Assembly (NCBI GenBank): GCA_021792795.1
Contig: JAJYUB010000004.1
Location: 1 to 64,000 of the forward strand
Reading direction: 5' to 3'
From: Acidobacteriota bacterium
GTDB lineage: Bacteria; Acidobacteriota; Terriglobia; Terriglobales; Acidobacteriaceae
Length of the DNA stretch: 64,000 bases
Shown one piece after another: positions 23,653 to 48,427 of this stretch. Each line of letters begins with the position of its first letter. Position 1 is the first letter of the stretch. The position numbers and the translations under genes are program-made. A model generated the notes under the pieces. It saw nothing but the letters and a program-made list of their open reading frames with translations, ran no database searches and was not told where the DNA came from.

Positions 23653-23717
23653 CGCCGTTTGGCGTCGGGCCATTTGTCGTTCTTTTGTCTGCTGTGCCTT
23701 GTGTGAGGAATCGCGAA

Positions 23718-25130
23718 ATGCAAATTCGAAAAACTGTTCAGGCCGGCGCGGTCGTTTCTCGCACCGCGGTACTGGTAAGTGCGGATGCTTCTTTTCGTCG
23801 ACGACTGGCTGAAATCCTGACGGGAATGCGATGGAAAGTGCGGGAGGCATCCGGAGGCGCGGAGGCGCTGTGTCATTTGGAGGAGACCCCGAGCGAAGCT
23901 CTTCTGCTCGACTTTTGGTTGCCGGACCTGGAAGCTGGCGATTTTGCCGAGCAACTTCGGCTCCAATATCCAGAGTTGGACCTGATCTGCGTTAACGAGA
24001 CCGAAGAGATGCTCGGCAAACCCCGTTCCGCGCGACGGCCGGAACTGCTGCATGCGCTTCGACGGGCGCAGGAAGCCGGAAATTCAGTTCGCGCAATGCC
24101 GGAGGACATTTTCCCCAGGGCCCTTCAGCCCATGGCGCCACATGGAATTCGTTCGCCGCAGGCACACGGAATCAATCCAGCCGGAAGTTTCCTGTACACC
24201 AAACCGGTACGGATTTTACCGGCCGCCTCGGAAAGCCTCGCCGTGTGCGATGCCCCGGAAGAGATCGCCGGCGAGGCGGGGAATTTGCCCGACAGCGCGC
24301 TTCCATTTCGAAGCGTGGCGCCGTTGGCAGCATCCATCCCGAACATTGCGGCCCTGCCCGGCTTGCTCGGGCGCAGTGCCGAAATGCAGAAACTTGCCCA
24401 CTCCATTCGCCTGGTGGCGCCCCGCAAGACGACCGTCCTGATCGAAGGGCCCACCGGCAGCGGAAAAGAACTTGTCGCGCAGGCCATCCATAAGTTGAGC
24501 CCCCGGGCCAATCGGCCTTTCATCGTCCTGAATTGCGCCGCCATTCCGGAGTCGCTTTTGGAAGCGGAGTTGTTTGGCCACACGCGCGGGGCCTTTACCG
24601 GAGCGGTGCAGGCACGCACGGGTCGCATGGAGGCGGCCCATGGCGGAACACTTTTTCTGGACGAGATTGGAGAGATGCCACTGGCGGTACAGGCCAAGGT
24701 GCTGCGTTTTCTCGAAGCCGGAGAACTCCAGCGCATTGGCGAAAATGAGTCCATGAGGGTGGATGTCCGCGTGCTGGCGGCGACGCATCAACCATTGCTG
24801 CAGCGCGTGGACGAGGGAAAATTTCGCGGCGACCTCTACTTTAGGCTGGCCGTTTTTCCGATACAGACGCCTTCGCTGGCGGAGCGCCCGGCAGACATTC
24901 CAGAGCTGGCCATGCACTTTCTGGAGCAGTTGGGGCAAAGCGGCCCCTCAAAAACATTTGAGCCGGCGGCCATCGAAAAATTGTGCGGTCACGGATGGCC
25001 GGGAAATGTGCGTGAGCTGGCGCATGTCGTCGAACGCGCGTACATCCTGGCCGAAGATCGTCCCTACGTTACGGCCGCGGAAATCCGCGTGAGGTCCAGA
25101 GAACGATCGACGACCGAAAAGACAGTATGA
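23718..25130 (+). CDS. Sigma-54-dependent activator without a DNA-binding domain (flagellar, FlgR/FlrC-like)
   Basis: 470 residues. Residues about 14-110 form a receiver-like domain with the acceptor aspartate D65 (LLLDFWLPD), but the usual N-terminal acidic pair is weak (VSADASF). A long linker rich in A and P leads to the AAA+ domain at about 213-450. Walker A is GPTGSGKE (244-251), the sigma-54 contact loop GAFTGA is at 291-296, Walker B is TLFLDEIGE, and the ERPADIP region and GWPGNVREL follow. The protein ends about 40 residues after GWPGNVREL, so the C-terminal Fis-type helix-turn-helix is missing. FlgR of Helicobacter is a known flagellar activator built this way. ATG at 23718 follows TGAGGAA; the track from TTG at 23685 is less likely. 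It would activate the sigma-54 promoters downstream. Confidence 0.88.
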   Translation: MQIRKTVQAGAVVSRTAVLVSADASFRRRLAEILTGMRWKVREASGGAEALCHLEETPSEALLLDFWLPDLEAGDFAEQLRLQYPELDLICVNETEEMLGKPRSARRPELLHALRRAQEAGNSVRAMPEDIFPRALQPMAPHGIRSPQAHGINPAGSFLYTKPVRILPAASESLAVCDAPEEIAGEAGNLPDSALPFRSVAPLAASIPNIAALPGLLGRSAEMQKLAHSIRLVAPRKTTVLIEGPTGSGKELVAQAIHKLSPRANRPFIVLNCAAIPESLLEAELFGHTRGAFTGAVQARTGRMEAAHGGTLFLDEIGEMPLAVQAKVLRFLEAGELQRIGENESMRVDVRVLAATHQPLLQRVDEGKFRGDLYFRLAVFPIQTPSLAERPADIPELAMHFLEQLGQSGPSKTFEPAAIEKLCGHGWPGNVRELAHVVERAYILAEDRPYVTAAEIRVRSRERSTTEKTV

Positions 25131-43278: not shown

Positions 43279-44277
43279 ATGCCTGTACCGAAGTTTCCAT
43301 GCACGGCAGACCGTGAACCCAAGGCCCCCATTCCGCTGCTGACCGGTCAACTTCAGCCGGAGGCTGAAGCGAGCGCAGCATCCTTGCCGGACGCGCCTTT
43401 CCAGCAGATGGACGCAGCCGAGCGCGAACAAATCCTGATCGAGCATCTGCCGGTGGTGCGCTTTATCGCGCGCCGCATTCATGAACACCTGCCCGCGCAT
43501 GTGGAGATGGACGACCTGGTGAGCGCGGGCATGGTCGGATTGGCGGACGCATTCAACAAATTCGATGCGGGCAAAAAGGTACAGTTCCGCAGCTATGCCC
43601 AATTTCGCATTCGCGGGGCCATTCTCGACAGCCTTCGCACCTTGGACTGGAGCCCGCGCGATCTGCGCCGCAAGGGGCGGGCCATCGAAGCCGCCATGCA
43701 TCGTTTGACCGGACGTCTGGGCAGGACGCCCTTGGAGAACGAAATCGCCGCCGAGATGGACATGTCTTTGCAGGAATATCAACACCTGTTGACGGACCTG
43801 CGAGGCCTGGAAATCGGCAGTCTCGATGTGGGCCATACGGAGGATTCATCCGAGGATGAAGTGGCGTATATGCCCAGTTCGCCGGAAGAGGGGCCGTTGT
43901 TCCACTGCCTGAAGGGAGAGATGCGGGCCAGACTGGCGGATGCGATCGCCGCATTGCCGGAGCGGGAACGGCTGGTACTGACCCTTTACTACTACGAGGA
44001 AATGACGATGAAAGAAATCGGACTCACGCTGGATGTGGTGGAGTCGCGCGTTTCCCAGATCCACACCTCCGCGGTGTTGCATCTGCGGTCCTTGCTGGCG
44101 AATCCTCCCGCGTCCGCCGCCAAAGAGCGTACCGGCAAACGGAATGCGGGCCGTCTCCGGATGCAGCGGCCAGCACATGCGGGACCGGGCGCAGTCCCTC
44201 CCGGCAAACGCACTGGAGAAGGGCGTCCACTGGCGCCGCGGGCTGAGGAGGGAGAGAACAAATGGATAAGCCGCTAG
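43279..44277 (+). CDS. fliA: Flagellar sigma factor FliA (sigma-28)
   Basis: 332 residues. Sigma region 2 (LVSAGMVGLADAFNKFDAGK, then QFRSYAQFRIRGAILDSLR and DWSPRDLRRKG), region 3 and region 4 (LPERERLVLTLYYYEEMTMK, EIGLTLDVVESRVSQIHTSA) are clear. It has about 50 extra N-terminal and 60 extra C-terminal residues compared with the common 240-residue form. The ATG at 43279 follows AAGGAGAGAG. It would read the sigma-28 promoters found before cheX, both stator operons, flgM and fliC, and is held by FlgM until the hook is done. flhF and flhG, often placed between flhA and fliA, are absent. Confidence 0.93.
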   Translation: MPVPKFPCTADREPKAPIPLLTGQLQPEAEASAASLPDAPFQQMDAAEREQILIEHLPVVRFIARRIHEHLPAHVEMDDLVSAGMVGLADAFNKFDAGKKVQFRSYAQFRIRGAILDSLRTLDWSPRDLRRKGRAIEAAMHRLTGRLGRTPLENEIAAEMDMSLQEYQHLLTDLRGLEIGSLDVGHTEDSSEDEVAYMPSSPEEGPLFHCLKGEMRARLADAIAALPERERLVLTLYYYEEMTMKEIGLTLDVVESRVSQIHTSAVLHLRSLLANPPASAAKERTGKRNAGRLRMQRPAHAGPGAVPPGKRTGEGRPLAPRAEEGENKWISR

Positions 44278-45239
44278 CGCAGGAAGAAATCGATGCCCTG
44301 TTTGCCGCAGCCCGCACTCGTGTCAGAAGCGTCAAGGAGCCGCCGGCCAACGCGCGGATGCAGCTTTTCACCTTCTCCCGCGTCGGCCAGATCAATAACG
44401 AGCAGATGCGCGCCATAAGCCTGCTCAACGACAATTTCGCCCGCAACCTGACGCATAACCTGGGCGCGTTTCTGCGCAGCCGGTTTCAGGTGGCTTTGGC
44501 CTCGGCGGAACAGTTGCCATATTCGGAGTTTGTCGAGCGCGTTCCGGACATCTGCTATGTCGCCTCCGTCCGGCTGGAGCCGCTAGGGGCCGTCTGCGGC
44601 CTGGAACTGGACCTGGCGCTGGCGCTTCCCATGATCGACCTGTTGCTGGGCGGAGAGGGCAAAGCGGCCGCGGTACGCGAGTTGACCGACATTGAGGAGT
44701 CGATCCTGGCCAGCGTGGTGGAGGTAAGCTGCCGCGAGTTGACATCGGCCTGGCAGCCGGTGGGGTTGACGTTCAATTTTGAAAAGCGGCAACAGCAGAC
44801 GCAGATTGCGCGCCTGATGTCTCTCACGGAAAAGACGCTTTCCATCAGTTTTGAAATTCGTATGCCGCATGTGCAGGGAAACCTGAACCTGGTCTTCCCG
44901 GCCGTTGTTTCCAACACCATTCTGCGTCGGCTGATTACCGATTGGGGACGGCAAAACCGGCGCCGTTCTCCGGAGGTCCTGGCCCGCATGGGAGAACGGC
45001 TGCAGCACATTCGGCTGCGGGGCGCTCTCCAATTGCCCTCCGTGCGGGTCCCTGCCACCGAGGTAGACGCGTTGCAGCCGGGTTCGATCGTGCGTTTGAA
45101 CCTGCCGGCAACTTCGCCTTCCGAACTGCGCATCGGCGGGATCCCTCTGTTCCACGCCATTCCGGTGCGCGCCGACCAACATCGTGGAGCGCAGATTACC
45201 GCGAGAAACAACCCTTTGTTGAACCGGGCCGTGGAGTGA
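44262..45239 (+). CDS. fliM: Flagellar motor switch protein FliM
   Basis: 325 residues. The N-terminal LAQEEIDALF contains the EIDALF peptide (residues 9-14) that binds CheY-P. The middle CheC-like domain and the C-terminal SpoA domain (VRVPATEVDALQPGSIVRLN) follow. Overlaps the end of fliA by 16 bases. fliL, often just before fliM, is absent. Confidence 0.93.
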   Translation: MDKPLAQEEIDALFAAARTRVRSVKEPPANARMQLFTFSRVGQINNEQMRAISLLNDNFARNLTHNLGAFLRSRFQVALASAEQLPYSEFVERVPDICYVASVRLEPLGAVCGLELDLALALPMIDLLLGGEGKAAAVRELTDIEESILASVVEVSCRELTSAWQPVGLTFNFEKRQQQTQIARLMSLTEKTLSISFEIRMPHVQGNLNLVFPAVVSNTILRRLITDWGRQNRRRSPEVLARMGERLQHIRLRGALQLPSVRVPATEVDALQPGSIVRLNLPATSPSELRIGGIPLFHAIPVRADQHRGAQITARNNPLLNRAVE

Positions 45240-45300: not shown

Positions 45301-46371
45301 ATGAGGTTGTCCATGATGGCAAGCAATCGAAGAGTTTTGGATTTGTGGATCGAGGTCGCATGCGCGCAACTGGAAGAACTGCTGCGCGTTCCGGTGGGGG
45401 CCCAAGCCACCGAGGACATTCCGCAGGCGGCCAGCGCCTATCGCAGCCAGTTGCTGTTCGAAGGCCCCGTGCATGGAGTGATGTATGTGACCGCCTCGGC
45501 GGCCAGCATGGTGCAATTGGCGCAAATGGTTGTCGGGGAGCCGGTCGACCCGCATGCTGCCTGGACAGAAGAAGGGCTGGAGGCGTGGCAGATCTGGCTG
45601 ACTGCGGCCAGCGGCAAGCTAGCGGCGCGTCTGTCGGAAGAATTCCCAGAAGCTTCTCAGGGCCCCTGTGGCATTCTGTTGCGCGAAACCACGGCGGTCG
45701 AGGGAGTGCATCTGGCCTCCGGACCCGAGACGGCCGCCTCCGGCGCCGCCGTCCAGGAATGGCTGCTGCGGGCGGGGGAGGGGGAAATTGCGCTTTCCGT
45801 CAGTTTGCAGGTGAAATTTCCCGGCGAAGAGTTTCCGGTTTCCGAGGCGGATGCATCCCCGGCGGCGAGCGCCCCAGCGGGGCAAGAAAGCGAAGAGAAG
45901 ATGGAAGACCCTGCCCAGGAAATCGAGGCCGACATTTCGTTGCCGGCGGTCGCGCCGAATCCTCCCGCAGACGGCCCGGTCTTCCAGCCTGCGCAGGAGG
46001 ACAAAAAAGAGTTGCAGGATGGGGAGCGTCAGCCGGCCCCGCAGCAGACCGAGGACCCTCGCGCGCCGGAGTCGAACCCTCCGTCTTCAAAGCCCGGCAA
46101 TGGGCAGCGGCTCGACCTGCTGCTCGATATCGAACTGGAGGCGACGCTTCGTTTCGGCGCACTGGAGTTGCCGCTGCGAGAGGTGTTGGAACTGGGTCCC
46201 GGCGATGTTTTGCCGTTGGATCGGCACGTGCGGGAGCCGGTCGATCTGGTGGTCGGCGACCGTATTGTCGCCCGCGGCGAAGTGGTCCTGGTCGAAGGAA
46301 ATTTTGCCCTGCACGTTACCGAGGTGGCGGAGCCGCGCCGCCGGTTGGAGACCATTCGATGCTTGTTCTAG
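45301..46371 (+). CDS. FliN/FliY-like switch protein with an N-terminal domain
   Basis: 356 residues. The C-terminal SpoA domain (about 275-345: DLLLDIELEATLRFGALELP, LREVLELGPGDVLPLD, VARGEVVLVEGNFALHVTEV) is a clear FliN domain. The N-terminal 160 residues resemble a CheC/FliM-middle fold (GVMYVTASAASMVQLAQMVV) without a clear phosphatase E-x-x-N motif, and an acidic, Pro/Glu-rich linker joins them. It is FliY-like in layout. It follows fliM, as expected for the C-ring pair. The start could be at 45301 or a few codons later (MMAS). Confidence 0.82.
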   Translation: MRLSMMASNRRVLDLWIEVACAQLEELLRVPVGAQATEDIPQAASAYRSQLLFEGPVHGVMYVTASAASMVQLAQMVVGEPVDPHAAWTEEGLEAWQIWLTAASGKLAARLSEEFPEASQGPCGILLRETTAVEGVHLASGPETAASGAAVQEWLLRAGEGEIALSVSLQVKFPGEEFPVSEADASPAASAPAGQESEEKMEDPAQEIEADISLPAVAPNPPADGPVFQPAQEDKKELQDGERQPAPQQTEDPRAPESNPPSSKPGNGQRLDLLLDIELEATLRFGALELPLREVLELGPGDVLPLDRHVREPVDLVVGDRIVARGEVVLVEGNFALHVTEVAEPRRRLETIRCLF

Positions 46372-46474
46372 ACATTTTTACAGCCGGGACACGCTGCGGA
46401 ACGGTCCACGCAACCGGACGCCTGGAAACAGCGTTCCCGGCAACGGAAATCGAAGACGACGAAGGCGGAGGTAA

Positions 46475-47473
46475 ATGACGATGTGGATGGAGCAGCTACA
46501 GACAGGCAGAAAGGCGGCGCTTATGGAGCTTACCCCGACTTGGGCGGAAGCTGCCCGGAGTCCCGATGCGTGGCCATTGCCCTGGGGCAGGACAGCCCAG
46601 CACCCCTCTCTTTTAAATACCTGCATGAATGCCTCCTGCAAAACCAGCTGGCTGCGGTTGTGGAGGCGGCGGAATGTTCCTCGCTTTGAGGGGCAATGGG
46701 CATGCAGCCAGGAATGCATGCGCGTGCTGATCGAGCAGGCGGTGGAACGGGAGCTGGGCGACGGAACGCCGCTGGAACCCAAAAAACACAAACACCGCAT
46801 TCCGCTCGGGCTGTTGATGTTGTCTCAGGGATGGATCACCCAGGAACAATTGCGCAAGGCGCTCGAAGCGCAGCGCGAGGCTGGGGGGAAGGCGCGCATC
46901 GGCGCGTGGCTCATGCGGCAGGCGGGCCTTTCCGAGGAGCAGGTCACTCGCGCGCTCAGCATGCAATGGGGGTGCCCGGTGCTGTCTCTTACCGGTCATC
47001 AGCCGGAGGCGGTCTCGACGCTGATTCCGCGAATCCTGTTGGACACCTATGGAATGGTGCCGCTGCGCAATGGCTCCAGCCGGTTGGCGTACCTTGCCTT
47101 TGAAGACCGGATGGATTCCACGGTGGCCCTCGCGGTGGAACGGATGAGCGGAATCCATATCGAGTCGGGCGTGGTAACGGCATCGCAATTTATGCGTGTG
47201 CATGAGCGGATGATGGGGGCCGCCTTTCCAAAAACGCAACTGATGGAAGTGAAATCGTCAAGCATGGTGGCAAGAGAAATAGCTGCGGTGATCGAGCGGG
47301 TCCGCCCGCACCAGACAAAGCTGGTGCGGATGCACCGGTACTTCTGGTTACGCCTGTGGCGCACTCCCGCGCCTGCCTTGTCCGTGTCTGGATCGCAGGC
47401 GGGCCCCCGCGGCCTTGTGCCCAGGATCCACCAGGTGGAAGATGTCCTCATTCGCTTGCAGCCCGAAGACTAA
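46475..47473 (+). CDS. Zinc-finger protein with an MshEN/GspE-N-like domain (unknown function)
   Basis: 332 residues, not a known flagellar part. Residues 50-81 have two C-x(3-4)-C pairs (C50, C55, C77, C81; CMNASC and CSQEC) around a Trp/Arg-rich stretch, a likely zinc site. Residues about 109-170 form the tandem repeat of GspE/MshE N-terminal domains: PLGLLMLSQGWITQEQLRKA then RIGAWLMRQAGLSEEQVTRA, followed by LSMQWGCPVLSL and the rest of the GspE-N fold to about 230. This fold binds cyclic-di-GMP in MshE-type ATPases. No ATPase domain follows. It lies after the fliM-fliN/Y genes and just before flgF, so a c-di-GMP-linked role at the motor or in export is an inference. Confidence 0.75.
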   Translation: MTMWMEQLQTGRKAALMELTPTWAEAARSPDAWPLPWGRTAQHPSLLNTCMNASCKTSWLRLWRRRNVPRFEGQWACSQECMRVLIEQAVERELGDGTPLEPKKHKHRIPLGLLMLSQGWITQEQLRKALEAQREAGGKARIGAWLMRQAGLSEEQVTRALSMQWGCPVLSLTGHQPEAVSTLIPRILLDTYGMVPLRNGSSRLAYLAFEDRMDSTVALAVERMSGIHIESGVVTASQFMRVHERMMGAAFPKTQLMEVKSSSMVAREIAAVIERVRPHQTKLVRMHRYFWLRLWRTPAPALSVSGSQAGPRGLVPRIHQVEDVLIRLQPED

Positions 47474-47689: not shown

Positions 47690-48427
47690 GTGGACAGCGG
47701 ATATTATGCGGCATTTACCGGATTATTGGCGCGCCAGCAGGCGATGGACGCTGTTGCCAACAATCTTGCCAATACGAACACCACCGGCTTTCGCGCCGAG
47801 CGAGAGTTTTTCAGCGATGCGCTGACCGGCCCGAACGCCTTCGGCTCGCAGTTGAACGCGGCGGTGAACGACTATGGCGTTTTGGGCGGCAACCAGATCG
47901 ACCTTTCGCAGGGGCAGATGGTGAGCACCGGAAATCCTCTGGATCTCGCTCTTGAAGGGCAGGGCTTTTTTGCTGTCGAGGACCAGCAGGGCAACATCCA
48001 ATACACGCGCGATGGATCGTTTACCCGTTCCACCAAAGGCGTGCTGACGACCCGTCAAGGCGAGCCAGTCCTGGATGTAAAGGGAAAGCCCATCACCATT
48101 CCGACGGGTGCCGTGACGATAGCGGGCGATGGCACGGTTTCGGTGAATGGGGGCGTGGCGGGGAAGGTTGGCGTGTTTACCTTTGCGGCCGGAACGCCAC
48201 TGGTCCCGGAAGGAGTCAGTCGCTATCAGGCGCCGCCGAAGTCGGCGAAGCTGACAACGGCGGCCGTGGTGCATCAGGGAAAATTGGAAAGTTCCAACCA
48301 GAATGTCGTCGAGGGAACGCTGCAGTTAATTCTGGTGCAGCGGCAGGCGGAAATGATGATGAAGGCCCTGTCGGTTTTCAGTAACGAGCTGGACCTACAG
48401 GCGAGCCAGGATCTGCCGCGGGCGTGA
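47690..48427 (+). CDS. flgF: Flagellar rod protein FlgF
   Basis: 245-residue proximal rod protein. N-terminal GLLARQQAMDAVANNLANTN, then TTGFRAEREFF; middle GNPLDLALEGQGFFAVE; C-terminal SSNQNVVEGTLQLILVQRQA. The start is GTG with a distant GGAGA site. flgG follows after 87 bases. Confidence 0.9.
   Translation: MDSGYYAAFTGLLARQQAMDAVANNLANTNTTGFRAEREFFSDALTGPNAFGSQLNAAVNDYGVLGGNQIDLSQGQMVSTGNPLDLALEGQGFFAVEDQQGNIQYTRDGSFTRSTKGVLTTRQGEPVLDVKGKPITIPTGAVTIAGDGTVSVNGGVAGKVGVFTFAAGTPLVPEGVSRYQAPPKSAKLTTAAVVHQGKLESSNQNVVEGTLQLILVQRQAEMMMKALSVFSNELDLQASQDLPRA

Follow-up and report, generated by a model that had tools for sequence, protein, structure and literature searches.

In the window (the whole stretch of 64,000 nucleotides of acidobacterial DNA that was analysed) the gene at 46475–47473 on the forward strand encodes a 332 amino acid protein in which a four-cysteine, zinc-finger-like site is followed by a MshEN domain and an N2-like half-domain, with no ATPase domain behind them. 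We read the product as a c-di-GMP-responsive accessory adaptor of the flagellum, one that is related to the front half of PilB-type ATPases and whose probable target is FliN with the C-ring, and give this reading a probability of about 0.5.

An open reading frame check of the window returned the gene exactly at the coordinates given in the initial annotation, and Pfam domains confirmed the neighbours named there, fliM and fliN on one side and flgF on the other. The ATG start codon is preceded by GGAGG. The homolog in another genome of the same genus (G004) is 77% identical across residues 1–331, and dN/dS between the two genes is 0.13, which indicates purifying selection. This conservation, together with the presence of relatives across the phylum, rules out a chance ORF, so that 46475–47473 can be taken as a genuine, selectively maintained gene.

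The gene is part of a chemotaxis and flagellar island that is almost continuous from 15530 to 61561 and includes a sigma-54 activator (23685–25130). Pfam domains within the island point to cheA, cheB, cheR, fliF, fliG, fliH, fliI, flgE, fliR, flhB and flhA, as well as to fliA, fliM, fliN, flgF, flgG, flgA, flgH, flagellin and fliD. The immediate neighbours, all on the forward strand, are fliM (44262–45239), fliN with its FliMN_C domain (45301–46371) and flgF (47690–48427). When the nearest upstream flagellar gene was judged among the 14 flagellar kinds for which models were at hand, it proved to be fliN in 38 out of 39 aligned loci; the one exception, L054, begins at a contig end. The gene lies downstream of fliN in all 16 near loci; its start overlaps the fliN stop codon in 12 of them and falls within 16 bases of it in two, while the gap amounts to 103 bases in the window (G000) and 198 in G004. 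The 23 further loci of the alignment, L054 apart, likewise have fliN as their closest flagellar gene upstream, with one or two genes intervening in some. In some families (L056, 6314–7729; L060, 8654–10255) the space between fliN and the gene is occupied by two genes recognised by eye, one HDOD-like and the other a DUF2802-like gene for a small membrane protein. Downstream, flgF comes next in many loci, though not in every one: in G037 and G258 no flagellar gene was recognised at that place. In several FliM-positive genomes which lack the gene, fliN and flgF are adjacent.

A 39-codon leader ORF (46359–46478, forward strand) opens inside the end of fliN and overlaps the start of the gene in an ATGA. 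Its start corresponds to the site at which relatives such as G021 and G017 begin the gene itself; the G004 version has 62 codons and ends 22 bases before its gene.

The initial annotation had proposed synteny and co-occurrence with fliM as a check on a flagellar role. Both were analysed, and the physical linkage turned out to be tighter to fliN than to fliM. In five of the loci (G019, G030, G258, G296 and G336) the gene has kept its place beside fliN, with fliM on a different contig or at a distance of tens of kb, so that fliM is ruled out as the tightest neighbour. Since the gene remains with fliN where fliM moves, gene order favours FliN over FliM as the candidate partner.

For co-occurrence, 396 genomes of the phylum were searched with a profile (A2) of 39 sequences, FliM being called by cut-off. 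The gene was found in 55 of the 396, all 55 with FliM over the cut-off; as a rule the best five or six candidates per genome were scored, and absences may include misses. None of the 293 genomes below the FliM cut-off carried it (ten of these have a weaker FliM match, and a few of the 103 FliM-positive genomes are just over the cut-off). The outcome named in the initial annotation as refuting a flagellar role, homologs just as frequent where flagella are lacking and unlinked to fliM, did not occur. Fisher's test of the association, which ignores kinship, gives p = 5e-39. The counts are separated by a gap in score: the 55 genomes reach at least 183 bits and are followed by G303 at 128.9 bits, which was not counted among them, and by others at 126.9 bits or less, mostly long PilB-like frames. 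Matches below 128 bits were assigned to the PilB type on account of their long frames, a few of them being short (e.g. G116, 326 aa; G318, 375 aa). The G303 sequence (L069) and the partial L059 were left out of the A2 alignment.

The same distribution is seen within families. In f1 the gene and FliM occur together in 35 genomes, FliM without the gene in two, the gene without FliM in none, and neither in seven; the corresponding counts are 4, 0, 0 and at least 8 in f33, 7, 4, 0 and at least 4 in f37, 1, 0, 0 and at least 4 in f55, and 1, 0, 0 and at least 1 in f71. Of the ten genomes of the window's own genus only G000 and G004 have FliM, and the same two alone have the gene, the other eight being drafts of 72–94% completeness. 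A search of 61 genomes gave 16 with a match reaching into the cysteine region, all of them among the 21 with FliM; the five FliM genomes without the gene were G039, G045, G047, G052 and G054, and the remaining matches begin at residue 96 or later and are mostly long PilB-like frames. One scan of a wider collection returned a contig from the same genus and a PilB-type ATPase from the Bacillota, and a plasmid collection gave no match to the gene. Correlations of evolutionary distance between the gene and six flagellar proteins range from 0.32 to 0.84, compared with 0.17 to 0.92 among those proteins themselves; they fit shared descent and are not decisive.

The gene was not found in 48 of the 103 FliM-positive genomes, about half of them, although a few of these may be misses, and it therefore appears to be an accessory rather than a required part of the flagellum. 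These absences, and the occurrence of the G303 relative outside flagellar loci, would suit a passenger gene, carried in the flagellar operon but serving something other than motility. We regard that as extremely improbable, given that homologs are not equally common in genomes without flagella (0 of 293 without FliM as against 55 of 103 with it), that the gene sits beside fliN in several families, and that it is under purifying selection.

The N-terminal part of the protein contains four cysteines (C50-x4-C55 ... C77-x3-C81; 46622–46717, forward strand), which had been recognised at the outset as a putative zinc site and prove to be near-invariant: C50, C55, C77 and C81 are kept in 38 of 38, 37 of 38, 39 of 39 and 39 of 39 of the aligned rows with a residue at the position. 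In the predicted model two short strands forming a β-hairpin are followed by a helix which starts at residue 79, at the second cysteine pair. On the basis of cysteine conservation and of the secondary structure of the model we predict a treble-clef-like arrangement and a putative zinc finger. No named zinc finger was listed as a match for this part, which was modelled within the whole protein. AlphaFold2 run on the A2 alignment gave a mean pLDDT of 90.1 (80.7 with 16 sequences); residues 1–46 are variable among relatives and were of low confidence in the 16-sequence model.

A zinc finger might instead bind nucleic acid or a regulatory protein, FliA or FlgM for example, rather than the C-ring, in which case the protein would regulate flagellar gene expression, or the order of assembly, in a c-di-GMP-linked way. 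Few features of the family are as well conserved as the cysteine site, fliA is found upstream in the operons and the sigma-54 activator in the window, and in some genomes FliM moves off while the gene remains in the operon. We nevertheless think a regulator of this kind fairly unlikely: the gene is coupled to fliN and not to a regulator gene, and searches whose filters drop weak matches gave the window protein no DNA-binding family among their listed hits at E ≤ 10.

Residues 108–249 (46796–47221, forward strand) make up the MshEN domain. The window protein scores 48.3 bits with NF053729, the curated NCBIfam model of the c-di-GMP motif (cut-off 38), and this model is listed for 39 of 39 family members when they are judged by E value (E ≤ 0.001). 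The Pfam MshEN model gives 16 bits, below its cut-off of 23.1, and is listed for 27 of the 39 at E ≤ 0.01. With Foldseek and VIA the predicted fold aligns to c-di-GMP-bound wild-type PilF GSPII-B (VIA Z 11.6, 2.7 Å, 134 residues) and to MshE (Z 11.3, 2.8 Å, 134 residues). Weaker matches were also obtained with two domains that do not bind the nucleotide, GSPII-A (Z 8.8) and XpsE (Z 8.9), and the fold match is accordingly no proof of c-di-GMP binding.

By the published definition and our alignment, c-di-GMP motif I comprises residues 110–133 (46802–46873, forward strand) and begins with PLG in place of RLG, while motif II comprises residues 141–164 (46895–46966, forward strand) and begins with RIG; seven residues link the two, compared with five in MshE. 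The initial annotation had described a second MshEN-like repeat bearing the RIG. That triplet is indeed present, at residues 141–143, and opens motif II, whereas motif I had been overlooked and the domain is complete; with both motifs present in the NF053729 match and in the alignment, the idea of a second repeat by itself is ruled out.

As set out by Wang et al. 2016 (PMC5013675), the contacts with c-di-GMP in each MshEN motif are made by Arg1, Leu2, Gly3, two further Leu residues and Gln24, and in MshE the Arg at position 1 of motif I takes part in binding. Across the 39 rows of A2 the glycine at position 3 is invariant in both motifs (Gly112 and Gly143, 39 of 39 each), the glutamine at position 24 is kept in 36 (Gln133) and 39 (Gln164), Arg141 of motif II is Arg in 35 and Lys in two more, and the Leu contact positions of both motifs are occupied by Leu, Ile or Val in nearly all. 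Position 1 of motif I is Pro in 20 rows, Arg in 9, Lys in 7, Leu in 2 and Thr in 1, and the window protein, with Pro there, does not have the (R/K/L)LG start. The mean entropy of the 12 ligand-contact columns, Pro110 included, is 0.71 bits (0.61 bits in a first test in which Pro110 was left out), whereas the remaining 128 columns of the MshEN domain average 2.35 bits; not one of 100,000 random samples taken within residues 108–169 was as low as 0.71.

The Pro start of motif I in the window lineage leaves room for the MshEN fold to have been kept as a scaffold for docking proteins, as in XpsE or PilF GSPII-A. Domains of this fold that do not bind the nucleotide do exist. As PMC12002112 describes GSPII-A, good binding needed both Gln residues, the motif II Arg and Gly3 to be restored, yet the restored consensus alone was insufficient, binding being obtained once a helix cap and subdomain contacts had also been removed. 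All of the residues restored in that work are kept in the window family, and Gly3 and Gln24, which are among the kinds of position altered in the non-binding GSPII-A, are near-invariant here. Nor is a missing Arg fatal to binding: PMC11731258 reports 6 nM for PilF GSPII-B, which has none, and about 460 nM for GSPII-C, which has Pro at position 1 of its motif II. A pure scaffold thus seems to us unlikely. With the ligand residues mostly kept and Arg-less or Pro-start binders known, binding of c-di-GMP by the window protein is likely, as judged from sequence and model, although the insufficiency of the consensus in GSPII-A tempers this.

Behind the MshEN domain lies a C-terminal half-domain (47231–47458, forward strand) with W291-x-R293 invariant in 39 rows. 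When A2 was compared by hhalign with 14 PilB-type sequences from relatives the probability was 99.6 (E 7e-25, 197 columns), the alignment spanning residues 103–300; it covers MshEN first, continues into the beginning of N2 and then ends. We read the half-domain as N2-like from this sequence profile. Structure comparison gave it weak matches, none above VIA Z 4.4 and most of them glyoxalase-like, and GspE N2 was absent from those listed. Family-model searches listed no ATPase family, and hence no Walker A/B domain, over the C-terminal part, and the weak matches to the PilB, NfrB and EpsG models are confined to the MshEN part. The absence of an ATPase domain claimed in the initial annotation is thereby borne out, and a plain relative of PilB or GspE is ruled out. 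In terms of sequence the window protein is related to the front half of PilB-type pilus ATPases and stops ahead of the motor domain, and it was probably derived from such an enzyme. Like the PilB/GspE traffic ATPases it has MshEN and the beginning of N2 in one stretch; unlike them it stops before the ATPase domain and is encoded in a flagellar operon. NfrB, a c-di-GMP-activated glycosyltransferase, is a different case, for its model matches the MshEN part at 45.8 bits, where the curated cut-off is 1170, and the window protein is without the glycosyltransferase part.

Kinship to the N-terminal domains of PilB, and the long-frame PilB-like matches present in gene-carrying genomes (e.g. G030, G040 and G051), could also be taken to mean that the protein links type IV pili with flagella, as a cross-talk factor whose PilB-like domains act on PilB or on the platform of the pilus. 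The gene is restricted to FliM-positive sampled genomes, whereas PilB-like matches occur in many without FliM as well, and we consider such a factor improbable.

The flagellar c-di-GMP adaptor that we favour would work as follows. It would be made together with FliN from one operon. On binding c-di-GMP its two MshEN subdomains would reorient as in PilF GSPII-B, where the ligand is described as unwinding a helical turn and reorienting the subdomains (PMC11731258). Contacts with FliN, the C-ring or its export apparatus, made by the zinc finger or by the C-terminal half-domain, may change as a result, and motor output or export would be lowered or biased; slowing, biasing and a block of export are all compatible with the proposal. 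Of the original suggestion of a c-di-GMP sensing adaptor for motor or export, membership of the flagellar system is well supported (55 of 55, 0 of 293), while for sensing the case is made by sequence and predicted fold.

The known brakes on flagella that respond to c-di-GMP mostly use PilZ domains. The YcgR-type brakes and the stand-alone PilZ brakes such as MotL share with the window protein only the proposed role, that of a c-di-GMP effector at the flagellar motor. The PilZ domain is theirs; none was matched in the window protein at E ≤ 10, nor in the 39 family members at E ≤ 0.01. GGDEF domains were present in 43 of 43 genomes tested and PilZ domains in 39 of the 43. The gene-carrying, FliM-positive G037, G042 and G080 have GGDEF and no PilZ match at E ≤ 0.001. 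Since 21 of 24 gene-carrying genomes have PilZ, a protein of the window type will rarely be the sole candidate c-di-GMP effector, and a general replacement of PilZ is unsupported.

The MshEN domain and its ligand chemistry are already known. With the receptors MshE and PilF GSPII-B the window protein has in common the predicted fold, the two 24-residue motifs and the conserved Gly and Gln contacts; it differs from them in the Pro start of motif I in its lineage, in the zinc-finger-like site in front, and in having neither ATPase nor glycosyltransferase. The titles and opening lines of abstracts in the open-licence literature searched yielded no MshEN protein of a flagellar operon that lacks an ATPase and has a zinc-finger-like site. 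Tentatively, and at slightly less than even odds, we propose an Acidobacteriota class of flagellar c-di-GMP effector in which a type IV pilus assembly ATPase, minus its motor, is combined with a FliN-docking zinc-finger adaptor for PilZ-independent control of rotation or export. If this is true, a sensor module of the pilus has been put to use in flagella, the MshEN-based, pilus-derived effector tied to fliN is a different solution from the PilZ brakes, and the Acidobacteriota would gain a testable motility switch.

Three further observations were made along the way. The G303 relative (L069, 7246–8070), which is zinc-finger-like with MshEN and without an ATPase, lies outside any flagellar locus, near secDF- and tatD-like genes as identified by eye, with fliM elsewhere in that genome. 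Lower-scoring FliM proteins (58–97 bits, most in f1 exceeding 100) were encountered in G187, G304, G258, G296 and G336 and as a second copy in G413; their genes lie away from the cluster that carries the gene, or in clusters that lack it, and they possibly represent a second C-ring lineage in family f1. Lastly, a 208-aa ORF is present on the opposite strand at 46613–47239. Antisense open frames differ in extent between relatives, the longest stretch being 214 aa in the window versus 173 aa in G004, with a different extent again in G021; the ORF may still be coding.
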